Shown in pieces: positions 1-34,748 of a stretch of 34,748 bases of DNA. This DNA comes from a virus. The notes under the pieces were generated by a model, which saw only the letters and a list, made by a program, of their open reading frames with translations, did not search any database and was not told where the DNA came from. The DNA lies in IMG/VR virus record IMGVR_UViG_3300044825_000641, positions 1 to 34,748 of that record; one strand, 5' to 3'. A program made the translations under genes and the position numbers. Within the stretch, counting starts at the first letter, position 1; every line of letters starts with the position of its first letter.

Positions 1-451
1 ATTCTGGGGTTATCGTTGCCGCCATCGCAGAGCAACTCCTTGGTGTCGGCCATAGGTGCGGGTTGTTCACTTGATCCACTAATCTGATTTGGATTGGCTG
101 TCCATTCTCCCGATGCGTTTTGCCCTGTTTCAGCAGGCCAGAAGTCCCTCCGGCTCCCGTGTCTGGAGTTCGCCACAATCCAGATTCTTTCTCGTTTGTG
201 GTTTGCTCCAACGCTTGACGCTCCCAGCACTCCCCACCGCGCATCAAACCCCATCGCGGCCAAGTCTCCGAGAACTCGGTCAAGTCCTCGAGAAACGAGC
301 ATTGGTGAGTTTTCCACGAACACGAATCTTGGTCGTACTTCGTGAATGATCCTTGCCATTTCTCGCCACATTCCTGATCGCTCTCCATCAAGCCCATCTC
401 CTTTTCCTGCAATTGAGATGTCTTGGCATGGAAAGCCGCCAGATATGACAT
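1..451 (-). CDS. Overlapping +1-frame protein of the FHAKTS / WPRWG / LWPTP type, partial
   Basis: A second open frame, one base out of register with the methyltransferase, runs from an ATG at 451 to the window edge (150 codons, no stop). The ATG is preceded by GAGG with an 8-base gap, a usable ribosome-binding site inside the methyltransferase gene. The product reads MSYLAAFHAKTSQLQEKE near its start, then CGEKWQGSFTKYDQDS, WKTHQCSFLED, FSETWPRWGLMRGGECWE, SGLWRTPDTG and LWPTPRS. I recall these as signatures of a recurrent phage protein family often filed near methyltransferases. FHAKTS is the +1 reading of the methyltransferase motif GFPCQDIS, and TWPRWGLMRGG is the +1 reading of DLAAMGFDARWG. 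I infer an overprinted gene; its function is unknown. A methyltransferase assembled through a natural or sequencing frameshift is the main alternative. Confidence 0.6.
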   Translation of the reverse strand, partial: MSYLAAFHAKTSQLQEKEMGLMESDQECGEKWQGSFTKYDQDSCSWKTHQCSFLEDLTEFSETWPRWGLMRGGECWERQALEQTTNEKESGLWRTPDTGAGGTSGLLKQGKTHRENGQPIQIRLVDQVNNPHLWPTPRSCSAMAATITPE

Positions 452-656
452 CAACAATTCCTCGCCACGGTTTGCCGTCAAAGGTTTGAACGTCATCCCA
501 AATCGGGAAACTCGGGAGAAGTCCGTCATTTTGTCTGGCGGCAAGTACGCTAGCTGCGTAGGGCTCCCATTCGACTGCACAGACGGTTCGCCATCCGAGC
601 AAATGTCCCCCAAGTATTCCTCCACCAGCGCCCGCGAAAAGAGCCAGCTCATTCAT
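1..656 (-). CDS. DNA cytosine-5 methyltransferase, C-terminus beyond the window
   Basis: Transfers a methyl group from SAM to C5 of cytosine in DNA. The gene starts at 656 and stays open to position 1, so 218 codons of the N-terminal catalytic part are visible. Motif I is LFAGAGGG (residues 6-13). Motif IV, GGFPCQDIS, carries the catalytic Cys77. Motif VI is ENS (115-117) and motif VIII is HKRERIWIVA (153-162). The target-recognition region and motifs IX-X lie off the window. The start codon overlaps the stop of the preceding gene as ATGA, which suggests translational coupling. In a phage such an orphan enzyme usually protects against host restriction. The same DNA also carries a second open frame (separate entry). 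The family call is secure; target specificity cannot be read. Confidence 0.95.
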   Translation of the reverse strand, partial: MNELALFAGAGGGILGGHLLGWRTVCAVEWEPYAASVLAARQNDGLLPSFPIWDDVQTFDGKPWRGIVDVISGGFPCQDISIAGKGDGLDGERSGMWREMARIIHEVRPRFVFVENSPMLVSRGLDRVLGDLAAMGFDARWGVLGASSVGANHKRERIWIVANSRHGSRRDFWPAETGQNASGEWTANPNQISGSSEQPAPMADTKELLCDGGNDNPR

Positions 657-1042
657 GCGACCTTGAGCTTTTCTTTCGCGGCCTTGACCACCGCAGCTCT
701 GAACTCTTGCGGGCCAGAGAAAGCCCACTCAAATATCCCCAGCTCCGCACCCTTAGCTTGTATCCCGGGCCAGCTCTCATGCCAAGGCTTCTCGTTCACA
801 ATATCCGGTAGGTCAACTTCTTCCTCGTCCATCCAGCCGCCGTCGTTTAGCCAGGTGCTCGGATAGGGGATGTATTGCCCCTTAGCTTTAGTCCACGATT
901 CCGACCGCTTGGCCCTAGCTATCGCGGCCAAAAGCTCTTCAATCGGGGGTCTGATTTTGGCCAGCTTATCCCATGTCCGCATGGCTTGGAGCTTACTTTT
1001 CTTCTTTGGATAAGCCTGCCAGAAGGTCTCAAAGTCAGTCAT
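653..1042 (-). CDS. Replication-organiser-like protein (FWxxYPKK motif)
   Basis: The 129-residue product opens with MTDFETFWQAYPKKKSKLQA, followed by TWDKL and later YIPYPSTWLNDGGW. This FWxxYPKK...W..L...YPxTWL pattern is the C-terminal signature of many phage replication proteins and replisome organisers that help load the host helicase. Here it stands alone without the usual N-terminal winged-helix domain, so it may be a stand-alone accessory or the remains of a larger protein. The start at 1042 was chosen because GGGAGAGG lies just upstream; an upstream in-frame start would extend deep into the preceding gene. It overlaps that gene by 8 bases and shares an ATGA overlap with the methyltransferase. 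Confidence 0.6.
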   Translation of the reverse strand: MTDFETFWQAYPKKKSKLQAMRTWDKLAKIRPPIEELLAAIARAKRSESWTKAKGQYIPYPSTWLNDGGWMDEEEVDLPDIVNEKPWHESWPGIQAKGAELGIFEWAFSGPQEFRAAVVKAAKEKLKVA

Positions 1043-1307
1043 CTTCCCTCTCCCGTATTTGCTTGGCCAGTTCCTTCTGGTCGGCATAGTCGGCAAGCTT
1101 GGCGCACTCCCCGCGCTCATAGGTTGCAGCCTTTTTTATGGCCTTGACCATGACCTCTGAGGCGCTCTGCTTTACCTGTTGGACGACTATCTCAATCATC
1201 TTCTGCAGCTGGGCGTCTGAGGCCGTCCAGAGCGGTTTAATCAGGTCTGATTCAGTCCTGACCATCCCGACCCCGTTGGCCAGGTTATGTAAGTCATCTT
1301 TTGTCAT
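1035..1307 (-). CDS. Hypothetical helical protein
   Basis: A 90-residue charged, mostly helical protein with no domain I recognise. The middle part (about residues 30-60) alternates hydrophobic and polar residues as in an amphipathic helix, and the end is very acidic and basic (KQIREREDD). It is translationally linked on both sides: its ATG overlaps the stop of the upstream membrane protein as ATGA, and its end overlaps the replication-like gene by 8 bases. Operon position suggests a minor role in DNA metabolism, but no residue pattern supports a specific activity. Confidence 0.65.
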   Translation of the reverse strand: MTKDDLHNLANGVGMVRTESDLIKPLWTASDAQLQKMIEIVVQQVKQSASEVMVKAIKKAATYERGECAKLADYADQKELAKQIREREDD

Positions 1308-7277: not shown

Positions 7278-8039
7278 TCATGCCTTCATTATGTAACAGA
7301 GCGCATAGTACGGAGGCAGATTTGCATTGGTGCCAGATGTACCGGACGATGCAGTTGTGCCGCTATATGTGTGATTGTGGTCGCCAGCAGTTGTTGTAGT
7401 GCCAGTATATTGGCCGTCATTTGTAGCATTTTGACTGCCGCCAGTAATTACTCCTGATCCTCCGCTATCACTATTTTGAGCAATAACCGTGAAACCGTGC
7501 GTATGTGATCCAGCGTTTGCAGTTGTGCCACTGAAAGTATGGGTGTGAGCCACAGTGATGGCATCAGCCGAACCTCCGGTAGCGTCCACCGCATAGGTAG
7601 ACCCGGCACCAACGATAAATCTGTTCCTAAGATCAGGTGTTCCGTTAGAACCATTACATAGATACCAGCCTACTGGTATTGAACCAATTGACCCTGACCA
7701 CAATACGATTGACCCGCTTGGTAGTGGCGTCGGTGGGGTTGGGGCAGTTCCAATAATTCCATACAGGTTGTCGTAGGTCTGAATGGTTACGTCATTGGAA
7801 TCTTTCAGGATGAACTTATAAAAGAACCCTTCGGTGAGCCAAATCTGGCTCGGTGGGCGGCCATCAGTCCCCAGAATGATTGGGTTAGTGTTGGCTACCA
7901 GACCGGCGTTGTCCGTGTAAGTCGCAAGCGGGGTGGTCGATCCAGCTTGGTAGGTGTAAATCTTGCCCGCGTTTAGTGGCGCACCGTTATTGGTAAAAAA
8001 CTGAAATGCGTTGCCTACTGGCGATAGATTGACTGCCAT
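7278..8039 (-). CDS. Tail fibre with phage collar domain
   Basis: A 253-residue structural protein. The first 90 residues (NAFQFFTNNGAPLNAGKIYTY, later GTDGRPPSQIWL and FFYKFILKDSNDV) are the usual phage-fibre anchor module. Residues 105-150 match the collar domain: GSIVLWSGSIGSIPVGWYLC, then NGTPDLRNRFIVGAG. A Gly/Thr/His-rich region with repeated HTHTFSGT, SHTHGF and DHNHTYSGT follows, and NLPPYYALCYIMKA closes it as in microcystin-dependent-type proteins. The His pairs probably bind metal along a trimeric fibre. It overlaps the start of the gene upstream by one base. Confidence 0.88.
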   Translation of the reverse strand: MAVNLSPVGNAFQFFTNNGAPLNAGKIYTYQAGSTTPLATYTDNAGLVANTNPIILGTDGRPPSQIWLTEGFFYKFILKDSNDVTIQTYDNLYGIIGTAPTPPTPLPSGSIVLWSGSIGSIPVGWYLCNGSNGTPDLRNRFIVGAGSTYAVDATGGSADAITVAHTHTFSGTTANAGSHTHGFTVIAQNSDSGGSGVITGGSQNATNDGQYTGTTTTAGDHNHTYSGTTASSGTSGTNANLPPYYALCYIMKA

Positions 8040-10219
8040 TATCGGTTCCCTCTAAAAATGTCCCCAATGGTGCGTTTTTGCTTTACGCCAGCCAGCGGTT
8101 CTAAAGTTTCACGTTCAAATTTTTGTGCCGCTTTCTTTTCCCTTGCCTGCTTGGCTATGGTTCCCAAAGGCAATATGTTTGCGGTCGATACATTAAGGCC
8201 AAGCTCCACGGCTCGTCCAGCTTTTTCTGCCAGCGAGGCGACCAAAGTGTTGCTGTTATTGGCATACCCGCCTTTGGGTTGAGCCATAACTTTGCGAGAT
8301 ATTTCGCCCAAGTCCCGCAGCGTTTTAGCTGAATCAGGATCAAATACTTCCAAAAGTTTGGGCTCAAGCTCTTTAAGAATCTTGTTGTATCCCGCTTGAG
8401 AAAAGTTGCCCTGACCGTCAATAGCTTTGCTGCGGATAATATCTAATACGCCAGCCGCTACTGCCTGCTGCTCTGGTGAACCCTTACCTAACGCGGCCAT
8501 CATCTGACGGACGTTGGCTTCCGTTCCTTTGCCCTTACTTAAAACAAATGTGTCAATAAAGTTTTCAGGAGCTACCGCGCCCTCAACCGCAGCTTTATAG
8601 GCTGGGTCTCTTTTTAGCGCATCAAACCGTTCCTTAGCGGTTCTGCGAGCTGCATCGGCCATCGGTTTTAGCTTGGCGGCATCACCGGTTAAGGGTAAGT
8701 TTTCTAGCGAATCACGCACCACCCCAAGAGCAAACTTCCGATTACCGTCGCCAGCCCGTTCAGCTTTACGAATTTCTGATGCTAGGTTTGTTCGCAGGGC
8801 TTCAAACTCTTCAAACGTCATGGTTGCGCCATCACGGTAACGCTGTAACTGACGCTCAATTTCTGGCGGCAAGAACTCGCTTTTGAGCTGTTTGCGTAAG
8901 TTTTGGTCGGCGTTTCCAACAAACTTTTGTGCGTCTATCGGAAACTGTCCGCCTGCGGCATCCCGCAAGTCGCCATAAAGTTTACTAATTACATCGTTAC
9001 GCTGACGGTCAATCATCATATAGCCGTCAATAACCTGTTGGCCAAAGTCTGACGCCTTGACCCCAAATACGTCTGGAGCTGCTTTGTCTCGGATCAGGGT
9101 TAAGTTATTGATCAGCGATTGGTTTTGCTCACCAAGTCGTGCAGCGATGTTATTCAGCTCACCCCTGCGGTTTAGCTCATCACTTAGGGCCACTAGGTCT
9201 CCGGTTGCCTGACCGCGAGTAAGGCGGATTGGCTCGGGCAGATTTAAGGCTTTGCTGTGCGCCTCTAAGGCTGGAAGGTTTACATCCTTTAGCGGTATTT
9301 GAGAGGCTTGAGCCTGCATTTCAACCGGCAGAGAATTGACGGCTGCCTGCACCGCCGCAGGGTCTTTACGCCCAGCAGCGCCAACGCTTGCCAGCCCGGG
9401 CAGCCCTGCCGGGTCTTGCGGCCTGATAATTCCCTGCTGCGCCTGGAACTCTTGGTATGACAGGCGTGGTTTTTGAGCTGGAGCCTGAGCCCTCGGTAAT
9501 GCTGCCGCTGGGGCGCTCGTAACGATTGGAGGCAGCTTGCTTTCTTCAAAAGCTTTACCAAGCTGCTCCAAGGCTTCTCTAGCCTCGGGTCTGCGCGGCT
9601 CGTAGGTTGACTCTTTCATGCGCTGGGCAAACACATCCTGAGAGCCGGGCTGAACACCTTTTTTAATTAACTGTTCAGCGGCAGCTATTGGAGCCACTAC
9701 GGCTTGAGTACCTAGCGCGGTTACAGCTTCAGCCGCAGGCACAATGTCGGGCTTCAGAGCCTGCAATACTTGGCGGTCGCCAGATACTAGGCCCGTTAAA
9801 AAGTCTCCAAAAGAGCGCCTACGGGCCGGTGGAGCTGATGCGGTACCGATGACACCAGACGGGCCGACTTGTGGAACGGCTGCGGCCAATGTCTGCTGTT
9901 CCCTTTGAACTGCTGCCTTTTCCTCTTGGCCAATAGACGTTATCCGCTCGCGGATGACCTGGCCCAAGTCTGGCACCTTTTCCTCGGGAGCTTGCCCTAA
10001 ACGCTGGCGAATAATGTCGCCAAGGTCAGGAACTGCACCAATCTTTAAGAAAAACGCCTCGCGTTGAGCTATATCGCGCTTATTGAACTGCTCTCTGGCG
10101 TCTGGATTACTTAAAATCCTGTCAACGTGATTGGGCAATATGCCCATCTGAATCATTTGATTCCGTGCGCCCTCTAACTGATCAGGCGTCAGGTTTTCAA
10201 ACCGATATAAGTCGTTCAT
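8039..10219 (-). CDS. Large internal/ejection-type virion protein
   Basis: A 726-residue, mostly helical, Ala/Gln-rich protein. The N-terminus carries two near-copies of PDLGxxIRxR (residues 63-72 and 83-92). A middle linker is rich in Pro/Ala/Gln, with hydrophobic AAEAVTALGTQAVVAPIAAA around 165-185 that could insert in a membrane. The rest is long amphipathic helix (GATMTFEEFEALRTNLASEI). Size, composition and position after gp10/gp4-like genes match the P22 gp16/gp20 or T7 gp16-type proteins ejected with DNA to form a trans-envelope conduit. No lytic transglycosylase motif was found. Overlaps its neighbours by 4 and 1 bases. Confidence 0.6.
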   Translation of the reverse strand: MNDLYRFENLTPDQLEGARNQMIQMGILPNHVDRILSNPDAREQFNKRDIAQREAFFLKIGAVPDLGDIIRQRLGQAPEEKVPDLGQVIRERITSIGQEEKAAVQREQQTLAAAVPQVGPSGVIGTASAPPARRRSFGDFLTGLVSGDRQVLQALKPDIVPAAEAVTALGTQAVVAPIAAAEQLIKKGVQPGSQDVFAQRMKESTYEPRRPEAREALEQLGKAFEESKLPPIVTSAPAAALPRAQAPAQKPRLSYQEFQAQQGIIRPQDPAGLPGLASVGAAGRKDPAAVQAAVNSLPVEMQAQASQIPLKDVNLPALEAHSKALNLPEPIRLTRGQATGDLVALSDELNRRGELNNIAARLGEQNQSLINNLTLIRDKAAPDVFGVKASDFGQQVIDGYMMIDRQRNDVISKLYGDLRDAAGGQFPIDAQKFVGNADQNLRKQLKSEFLPPEIERQLQRYRDGATMTFEEFEALRTNLASEIRKAERAGDGNRKFALGVVRDSLENLPLTGDAAKLKPMADAARRTAKERFDALKRDPAYKAAVEGAVAPENFIDTFVLSKGKGTEANVRQMMAALGKGSPEQQAVAAGVLDIIRSKAIDGQGNFSQAGYNKILKELEPKLLEVFDPDSAKTLRDLGEISRKVMAQPKGGYANNSNTLVASLAEKAGRAVELGLNVSTANILPLGTIAKQAREKKAAQKFERETLEPLAGVKQKRTIGDIFRGNR

Positions 10220-33689: not shown

Positions 33690-34045
33690 TCTGTGCCGCC
33701 CCCAAGTAATCTTACCTTGATCATTCCCCCAATTTGTTGGCTGACTTTATATTCGCAGTCGATCCGGTTGTCGTTGATGTTCCAGGCGTCCGCAAGACCA
33801 TCCTGACCGGCCTTGAACGACCCAATCATATTGTCCTGATCCCGCTTTCTTTTATCTGGTGGGTAGAACTCAATTTCTAGTTTGATCTTTCCTTCTTCGG
33901 GTAAGGCCCACTTAGCCTGCATCGCTAAGACCCTGACAGCGAACCGATACTTTTTCTTGGCCGACGCCTGGGGCGCCCAATGGCCAGAGTAGTTAGGGCT
34001 TAGTTCCTTGGGCGGCCAAGGTAAACATAATCTATCTTTATTCAT
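33686..34045 (-). CDS. rusA: RusA-type Holliday junction resolvase
   Basis: A 119-residue resolvase that cuts four-way junctions before packaging. The N-terminus LCLPWPPKELSPNYSGHW is typical, and the metal site is RDQDN (two Asp), DGLADAW and NINDNRID, the D-x-D...D pattern of RusA. The ATG at 34045 overlaps the preceding stop as ATGA; in-frame upstream ATG (34054) and TTG (34060) also exist. Placed beside late genes, it likely supplies unbranched DNA to the terminase. Length is standard (E. coli RusA 120). Confidence 0.9.
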   Translation of the reverse strand: MNKDRLCLPWPPKELSPNYSGHWAPQASAKKKYRFAVRVLAMQAKWALPEEGKIKLEIEFYPPDKRKRDQDNMIGSFKAGQDGLADAWNINDNRIDCEYKVSQQIGGMIKVRLLGGGTE

Positions 34046-34748
34046 TCCGTACATTCGCAAGGTAAATCAAACCCAACAAATGGCAAAGTAATTTGAGCTT
34101 GATGCATCATTATTATTTCTTTCCATGCGTAATTTCTTCCTAACCCTTTAATTATCGTAAGTTCAGCATTTTCTTCCATTTTTAATGCTCTGTTTAATAA
34201 ATTTGGATGTTTTTCATACAAATCAATTATTTCTTTTGGTTTGCTTGATGGGCAAAAAAAACAAGCTGATTTTCCGGGTAAAGTAATACCCGATTTTTTT
34301 ATTGTTTCAATACATTCTTCACGTTCCCATCCCCATTCAATTAGAGGAAATTTGTAATCGTATTGTTTATCAATTCTTTTTAATGCATTTTCTTTACGGC
34401 GCTCTTCGCCTGCATCGTAACCAATATATTTAATAACTTTTAATCCGTTGGCCCAGGCATCAATAGCAGGTTGCCATTGTTTTATAAATTTGTGTTGTGG
34501 TCTTATTTTAAAATGATCGGAACAACGTTTAAAACCATAAGCTATACTCGGCAAAGATTTTAAATTTTGACATTCTTGTTCCAATGTAACTTTTACCCCA
34601 TCTTTTTCTTTTTGAACAATTATTATTTCGGGATAATTTTTATTTTTTAACCAATTAGAAAAATTTTTTATATGTTCATAAATTTCTGGACGTTCTGCGC
34701 CGGTGTCGGCAAATAAAATTAAATCTATTGGTTGTTTTTGATTTACAA
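34042..34748 (-). CDS. PAPS-reductase/ATP-pyrophosphatase-family protein, N-terminus beyond the window
   Basis: The frame is open to the right edge, so at least 235 codons are visible. LILFADTGAERPEIYEHI is the part just after the PP-loop in the PAPS-reductase-like superfamily, whose SGGKDS motif would lie off the window. SIAYGFKRCSDHFKIRPQHK and the Cys pair CFFCP follow. Phage members are of unknown function; relatives include DndC-type sulfur-modification enzymes and sulfonucleotide reductases. The gene is strikingly AT-rich (long T and A runs, ATA and TTA codons) beside GC-balanced neighbours, which suggests recent acquisition. It ends in an ATGA overlap with rusA. Confidence 0.8.
   Translation of the reverse strand, partial: VNQKQPIDLILFADTGAERPEIYEHIKNFSNWLKNKNYPEIIIVQKEKDGVKVTLEQECQNLKSLPSIAYGFKRCSDHFKIRPQHKFIKQWQPAIDAWANGLKVIKYIGYDAGEERRKENALKRIDKQYDYKFPLIEWGWEREECIETIKKSGITLPGKSACFFCPSSKPKEIIDLYEKHPNLLNRALKMEENAELTIIKGLGRNYAWKEIIMMHQAQITLPFVGFDLPCECTE

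Follow-up and report, generated by a model that had tools for sequence, protein, structure and literature searches.

A C5 cytosine methyltransferase probably specified as two polypeptides by overlapping frames of one stretch of phage DNA

At one edge of a viral contig (IMG/VR record IMGVR_UViG_3300044825_000641, analysed over its full length of 34,748 nt and hereafter called the window), the same stretch of DNA carries two long open reading frames, which very probably specify a single C5 cytosine methyltransferase (MTase) as two polypeptides: alpha, the large domain, in frame 0, and beta, the small domain, in the +1 frame. In C5-MTases, the large domain is made up of motifs I–VIII and motif X and the small domain of the target-recognition region (TRD) and motif IX (PMC3404938), while the C-terminal motif X helix folds back onto the large domain (PMC5944983). 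Alpha would provide the AdoMet-binding and catalytic motifs I–VIII, followed by a linker and motif X, and beta, translated from an ATG of its own, the target-recognition region with its PTP repeats and motif IX. Upon joining alpha, beta would complete the DNA-binding cleft and determine which sequence is methylated; with both starts fed from a single upstream gene, similar amounts of alpha and beta would be made. Engineers have obtained two polypeptides matching the two domains by circular permutation (PMC5944983); here, alpha would keep motif X by way of the linker, and the domain division would be reached without circular permutation. We infer the translation of both frames, the formation of a complex, methylation and an anti-restriction role from the patterns described below.

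To our knowledge, long same-strand overlaps in double-stranded DNA phages have rarely been proved. The overlap reported here spans 230–370 codons. It is kept in hundreds of phages and prophages across a range of many bacterial phyla, and its two frames appear to split the work along structural domain borders. If this is true, many genes annotated as “DNA cytosine methyltransferase” are without the recognition half, left unannotated in the +1 frame, and alpha-type genes expressed alone should prove inactive or unspecific. Loci of the single-chain, split and nested forms, annotated frame by frame, make the origin and the upkeep of overprinted genes directly testable.

Layout of the locus in the window

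The features of the locus are collected in Table 1. From its ATG to the window edge, alpha runs for 218 codons and beta for 217 codons without a stop. The edge cuts both ORFs, and motifs IX and X fall beyond it: everything stated here on the C-termini of alpha and beta is taken from relatives, the nearest of which (locus L010) is 87% identical in beta. Joining the ends of the record to recover the C-termini was tried and rejected, the other end carrying an unrelated ORF and there being no terminal repeat.

Alpha matches the Pfam family DNA_methylase PF00145 (E = 1.1e-32) and phrog_363 (E = 9.7e-62), and it is a C5-MTase by the presence of motifs I, IV (PCQ), VI (EN) and VIII in this order, in agreement with an earlier reading of the window that was made from the letters alone (the sequence-only reading). 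Beta matches phrog_1008 (E = 1.7e-15) and has full-length homologues in phages, viral contigs and prophages. The four beta motifs put forward in the sequence-only reading (FHAKTS, CGEKWQGSF, TWPRWGLM and LWPTP) were all located in the +1 frame, and FHAKTS and TWPRWGLM are, as proposed, the +1 readings of GFPCQDIS and DLAAMGFD in alpha. By contrast, the start that had been assigned to the +1 frame, an ATG at position 451 opening 150 codons, is internal: the start conserved in relatives is the one at position 652, which opens the 217 codons given above.

The alpha and beta start codons are combined in a double start, ATGAATG, in which the beta ATG lies 4 nt downstream of the alpha ATG. A Shine–Dalgarno-like AAGG precedes the alpha ATG with a spacing of 4 nt and the beta ATG with a spacing of 8 nt. 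The stop codon of the upstream, replication-initiation-like gene overlaps the alpha ATG, which suggests coupled translation of both subunits.

Table 1. Features of the two-frame locus, in window coordinates.
Feature	Position	Strand	Basis or remark
Whole two-frame feature	656-1	minus	
Alpha, C5 cytosine methyltransferase frame (f0)	1..656	minus	Pfam PF00145, phrog_363, motif coordinates
Beta, +1 frame ORF (f1), putative small-domain / specificity subunit	1..652	minus	phrog_1008, full-length homologues, kept ATG
Alpha motif I, FAGAGGG	638-618	minus	
Alpha motif IV, GGFPCQDIS	440-414	minus	
Alpha motif VI, ENSPM	314-300	minus	
Alpha motif VIII, RERIWIVA	194-171	minus	Adjoins the hand-over of constraint from alpha to beta
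Beta FHAKTS	433-416	minus	
Beta CGEKWQGSF	370-344	minus	
Beta TWPRWGLM	265-242	minus	
Beta LWPTP	55-41	minus	
Beta residues 1-95, N-terminal extension overprinted on motifs I-IV	368..652	minus	Window's clade
Putative beta-frame target-recognition region, first part (LWRTP ... LWPTP), edge-cut	2..178	minus	Codon-position pattern, cassette variation, PTP homology
Double start ATGAATG	650..656	minus	Alpha ATG 656-654, beta ATG 652-650
Shine–Dalgarno-like AAGG	661..664	minus	Read from sequence
Upstream replication-initiation-like gene	653..1120	minus	TGA stop 655-653 overlaps alpha ATG

Openness and constraint of the two frames

At the level of sequence, the locus is an overlapping gene pair, that is, two open frames which are both under selection. 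Relatives were collected in three sets: L010–L089 via the +1 protein, L090–L169 via the MTase protein alone, regardless of the +1 frame, and L170–L247 from bacterial genomes via the +1 profile. In the relatives, both frames are open along the whole gene, over 230–370 codons, with stops no more than about 20 nt apart. In the second set, 80 out of 80 loci have the +1 ATG, and the +1 stop lies at most 60 nt from the MTase stop in 75 out of 79, whereas a usable MTase start codon occurs at this position in only 63 out of 80, the other 17 having an in-frame ATG or GTG upstream. The +1 start is thus the better kept of the two.

The number of stops to be expected was obtained from codon shuffles preserving each MTase protein and its codon usage (L007 was left out of the later stop counts). 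No +1 stop occurs in 196 of 199 sequences, with 2.15 such sequences expected; over the same 199 sequences, there are 0 stops versus 266.6 expected in codons 3–95, 2 versus 369.3 in codons 96–165, and 2 versus 262.9 in the variable region, counts which ignore relatedness among sequences that reach below 50% MTase identity and stem from many phyla. The +2 frame has stops at or above expectation in most regions and no overall depletion. For the window alone, cut as it is by the edge, the same codon shuffle gives 2.3 expected +1 stops versus none observed (p ~0.04). The negative controls, single-chain and split MTases, contain 48 +1 stops versus 77.0 expected and 27 versus 34.1, respectively, in the catalytic region. 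Across the recognition region, shuffles keeping the +1 protein lead to 248.6 expected stops in the alpha frame; 14 were observed, all of them in 2 of the 63 sequences. The avoidance of stops and the kept ATG in the both-frame loci argue that two proteins are made.

Selection is also visible at synonymous sites, where third bases are fixed column by column, as overprinting had led the sequence-only reading to anticipate. The codon for Asn2 is AAT in 198 of 198 sequences, while 67% of the other Asn codons are AAC; among further invariant residues, Gly136 is specified by GGG in 203 of 204 cases and Ala5 by GCT in 197 of 202. In a comparison of protein identity with codon shuffles, the +2 frame exceeded its null just as the +1 frame did, and this comparison therefore failed to tell the frames apart. 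A control with flanking genes showed third-position change of 0.33 versus 0.44 at 15–20% protein divergence, which is in the expected direction but confounded.

The frame under constraint changes along the gene. In substitutions between relatives (pair counts are not independent), the MTase third position is the most variable in codons 3–40 and in most of motifs I–VIII; from about codon 158, directly past motif VIII, the pattern is that of the +1 frame, with differences of ~0.31–0.45 at the +1 third position and ~0.02–0.15 at the second. The +1 pattern runs through motif IX to some 20–25 codons ahead of the MTase stop: in the last 75 to 45 codons, +1 positions 1, 2 and 3 differ at ~0.13, 0.10 and 0.42, which is the pattern of a +1-frame gene. 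Over the last ~20 codons, which cover motif X, the MTase-frame pattern returns. Entropies at motif IX are 0.45, 0.44 and 0.89 for +1 positions 1, 2 and 3, and those at motif IV are 1.39 for the MTase third position and 0.4 for the others.

Judged by these substitution patterns, the hand-over of constraint sits at domain borders, with the MTase frame holding motifs I–VIII, the +1 frame the recognition region and motif IX, and the MTase frame again motif X. Substitutions in the recognition region follow the +1 frame, which assigns this region to beta; the alpha frame over it is an unconserved linker. A TRD and motif IX are, then, absent from the alpha polypeptide, the constraint there lying in the +1 frame, while motif X is present in the same polypeptide as motifs I–VIII (GNGQVP, in the MTase frame of relatives). 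Since each frame stays open where the other dominates, translation of alpha would continue along the linker as far as motif X, and that of beta would begin at a separate ATG.

Domain content of beta and the architectures of related enzymes

Phage MTases of this group occur in three architectures (single-chain, split and nested), to which loci were assigned by short motif patterns, those with a deviating motif IX going to other classes. In the single-chain form (L258, L262, L263, L267 and the Rabbitrun enzyme), motifs I–VIII, PTP repeats in most cases, FAEWMMGWPxGWVT and motif X are read in one frame. In the split form (Catdawg gp6/gp5, phiBT1, L257 and L261), the first ORF ends past motif VIII and a +1 ORF contains PTP, EWMMGWP and motif X. 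In the nested form, which includes the window's locus, motifs I–VIII and X lie in the MTase frame and the +1 ORF contains PTP and EWLMGWP, its motif IX reading NPxWVEWLMGWPxGWT. The EWxMG motif was found in the +1 frame in 239 matches, in frame 0 in 29 and in the +2 frame in 2. In a tree of the catalytic domain, the architectures are clustered yet interconverting, with nine changes.

These architectures link beta to the small domain. The phrog_1008 profile matches the C-terminus of the single-chain Rabbitrun enzyme (E = 3e-32) and Catdawg gp5 (E = 5e-59). The single-chain profile aligns EWMMGWPxGWV...GNGVVP with RKLHPRECARVMGYPDSY...GNSVV of M.HhaI, i.e., with motifs IX and X; the match to the M.HhaI segment RKLHPRECARVMGYPDSYKV...GNSVV is weak, at 1.3 bits on its own, but colinear with a strong N-terminal match. 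A model of a single-chain enzyme (pLDDT 83, pTM 0.82) matches M.HhaI over its full length. Argued from this homology, beta most likely adopts the small-domain fold. We found no Pfam or NCBIfam family for beta, a search of the PDB with its profile yielded only a match at chance level, and the AlphaFold2 model of beta alone was poor (pLDDT 58, pTM 0.24).

In the sequence-only reading, it was suggested that the signature of the second protein may derive from the catalytic loop of the first. This stands for FxAKTS and TWPxWG, which are overprints (+1 readings of the catalytic domain) and are missing in single-chain relatives; it does not stand for the WPTP region and the C-terminal motif, which correspond to the recognition region and motif IX and are read in the MTase frame in single-chain enzymes. 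The prediction of a widespread family of overprinted genes was borne out, homologues of beta being situated nearly always inside a C5-MTase gene. We consider it possible, albeit rather doubtful, that the N-terminal ~95 residues of beta, overprinted on motifs I–IV, form a domain newly gained in the window's clade that serves a separate function, such as the folding or dosage control of alpha, or a second anti-host role. On this reading, the complete overlap would cause a catalytic subunit and an exchangeable specificity subunit to be inherited as one unit, while the recognition cassette would be swappable because the alpha frame there is a mere stop-free linker.

Several pairs of loci (e.g., L041/L048 and L026/L035) are 97–99.6% identical in catalytic DNA while the variable region of beta is 18–37% identical and differs in length; in the same pairs, motif IX is mostly 70–100% identical. 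Beta would accordingly seem to behave as an exchangeable specificity part, and phages seem to swap its recognition cassette, presumably to alter specificity and to shield phage DNA from host restriction.

Some individual loci deserve mention. In L266:2162-2932, a catalytic N-terminus and a +1 C-terminus are joined in one frame, without motifs VI–VIII, which is suggestive of an indel or of faulty assembly. L307, itself split, is near-identical to the single-chain loci L288 and L300; either its +1 shift took place very recently or the sequence contains an error. In phiBT1 (L252:1405-2337), the gene 9.1 methylase is annotated as “may be inactive”; downstream of it lies an unannotated +1 ORF of 310 codons with PTP motifs and motifs IX and X, and the pair may constitute a working two-subunit enzyme.

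Alternative explanations and known systems

According to the sequence-only reading, the +1 product is a separate protein that acts on the MTase or on host restriction. Such a regulator or anti-restriction factor, merely sharing DNA with the MTase, would agree with the failure of AlphaFold2 and family searches to place beta in any known fold or family, with the lack of a counterpart of its first ~95 residues in single-chain enzymes, and with four bacterial loci (L182, L207, L221 and L237) where the MTase frame is interrupted and the +1 frame open. (These four are either decayed prophage genes or loci retaining beta alone.) However, single-chain MTases have the C-terminal module of beta joined to their catalytic domain in one frame, in the split forms this module includes motif X, alpha is without a conserved recognition region or motif IX, and the variation in beta resembles that of an exchangeable recognition cassette. 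We consider a separate protein improbable; beta most likely serves the MTase as its specificity subunit. Slightly less probable again is the production of one protein by programmed frameshifts, +1 past motif VIII and back ahead of motif X. The frame of constraint does switch at exactly these two points, but a frameshift product would need neither an MTase frame that avoids stops across the recognition region (14 versus 248.6 expected) nor a stop-free +1 frame over the catalytic domain (0 versus 266.6 in codons 3–95) with an invariant ATG.

That the +1 frame is a shadow ORF, open merely through codon bias and the conservation of the MTase, is highly unlikely and was ruled out at the sequence level. 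High-GC codon bias is able to open alternative frames, and the window taken alone reaches only the p ~0.04 mentioned above; on the other hand, with the protein and its codon usage held constant, the shuffles predict some 900 stops where 4 were seen, substitutions in the recognition region track the +1 frame and not the MTase frame, and the single-chain and split controls do show +1 stops in the catalytic region. The least credible of the alternatives is that an indel introduced by sequencing or assembly broke a single MTase up into two frames. Isolated cases exist, namely L266, where an indel seems to join the frames, and L307, the split copy among single-chain loci, but the double ORF is shared by hundreds of independent contigs, isolate phages, plasmids and bacterial genomes, and an artefact was ruled out by this recurrence across independent sources. 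The loci were examined for what speaks against overprinting (+1 stops in relatives, a lack of synonymous constraint, a sequencing indel), and none of the three held for the family.

The two-polypeptide reading has precedents among known enzymes. The beta subunit of M.EcoHK31I, of ~176 aa, is translated from a different frame inside the gene for alpha. The window-type arrangement resembles M.EcoHK31I (YGGCCR) and M.EaeI in that the large subunit contains motifs I–VIII and X and the second polypeptide motif IX (here known from relatives), and it shares with M.EcoHK31I the reading of the second polypeptide from another frame of the large-subunit gene. Unlike the shorter beta of M.EcoHK31I, window-type beta measures 230–370 aa and overlaps alpha nearly end to end from ATGAATG, and the arrangement, again unlike M.EcoHK31I, is spread over phages, plasmids and prophages. 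Furthermore, M.EcoHK31I has motif IX on the second polypeptide but a TRD reported on the large subunit (PMC3404938), whereas the window-type recognition region appears to be selected in the beta frame. The location of the recognition region and motif IX on the second subunit is shared with M.AquI; M.AquI beta also carries motif X (PMC3404938), whereas the window's clade has motif X in the alpha frame. The AquI-like form, in which the second ORF has motif IX as well as motif X, is represented by Catdawg gp6/gp5 and phiBT1. The single-chain actinophage MTases (L258, L262, L263 and Gordonia phage Rabbitrun gp78) are alike in catalytic family, in EWMMGxPxGW and, in most, in PTP, but all their motifs are read in one frame of one protein, and their catalytic domain is not overlapped by an open +1 ORF.

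The ShiLan element is another case of a phage methylase gene that conceals a second, out-of-frame protein. There, this protein is an HNH endonuclease (PMC11855218), a homing insertion unrelated to methylation, whereas the hidden beta would be part of the enzyme. The +1 product belongs to phrog_1008 (60/60 members), the name of which, “DNA methyltransferase”, is silent on its members being out-of-frame partners inside a C5-MTase gene. The nested +1 ORF has already been annotated in Paenibacillus phage Diva (“g49 internal gene”) and in phage K1ind3 (“Mte8-like protein”); these records give it neither a function nor a link with the small domain, and they start beta further downstream. Among the openly accessible papers searched, we found none that treats this phage arrangement as an enzyme of two subunits. 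Most records examined annotate one frame only, sometimes the +1 frame. Two Leptospira interrogans plasmids (L248 and L255) harbour the same nested MTase, for which the annotation says no more than DNA cytosine methyltransferase; the alpha frame of L255 seems to have lost its motif X end.

Elsewhere in the window, portal, head and tail genes are recognisable. A minus-strand ORF of 726 codons (8039-10219) has no PHROG match. Another minus-strand ORF (34042-34746), cut by the right edge, contains the cysteine motif SACFFCPSS and, by eye, resembles PAPS-reductase-like phage proteins.
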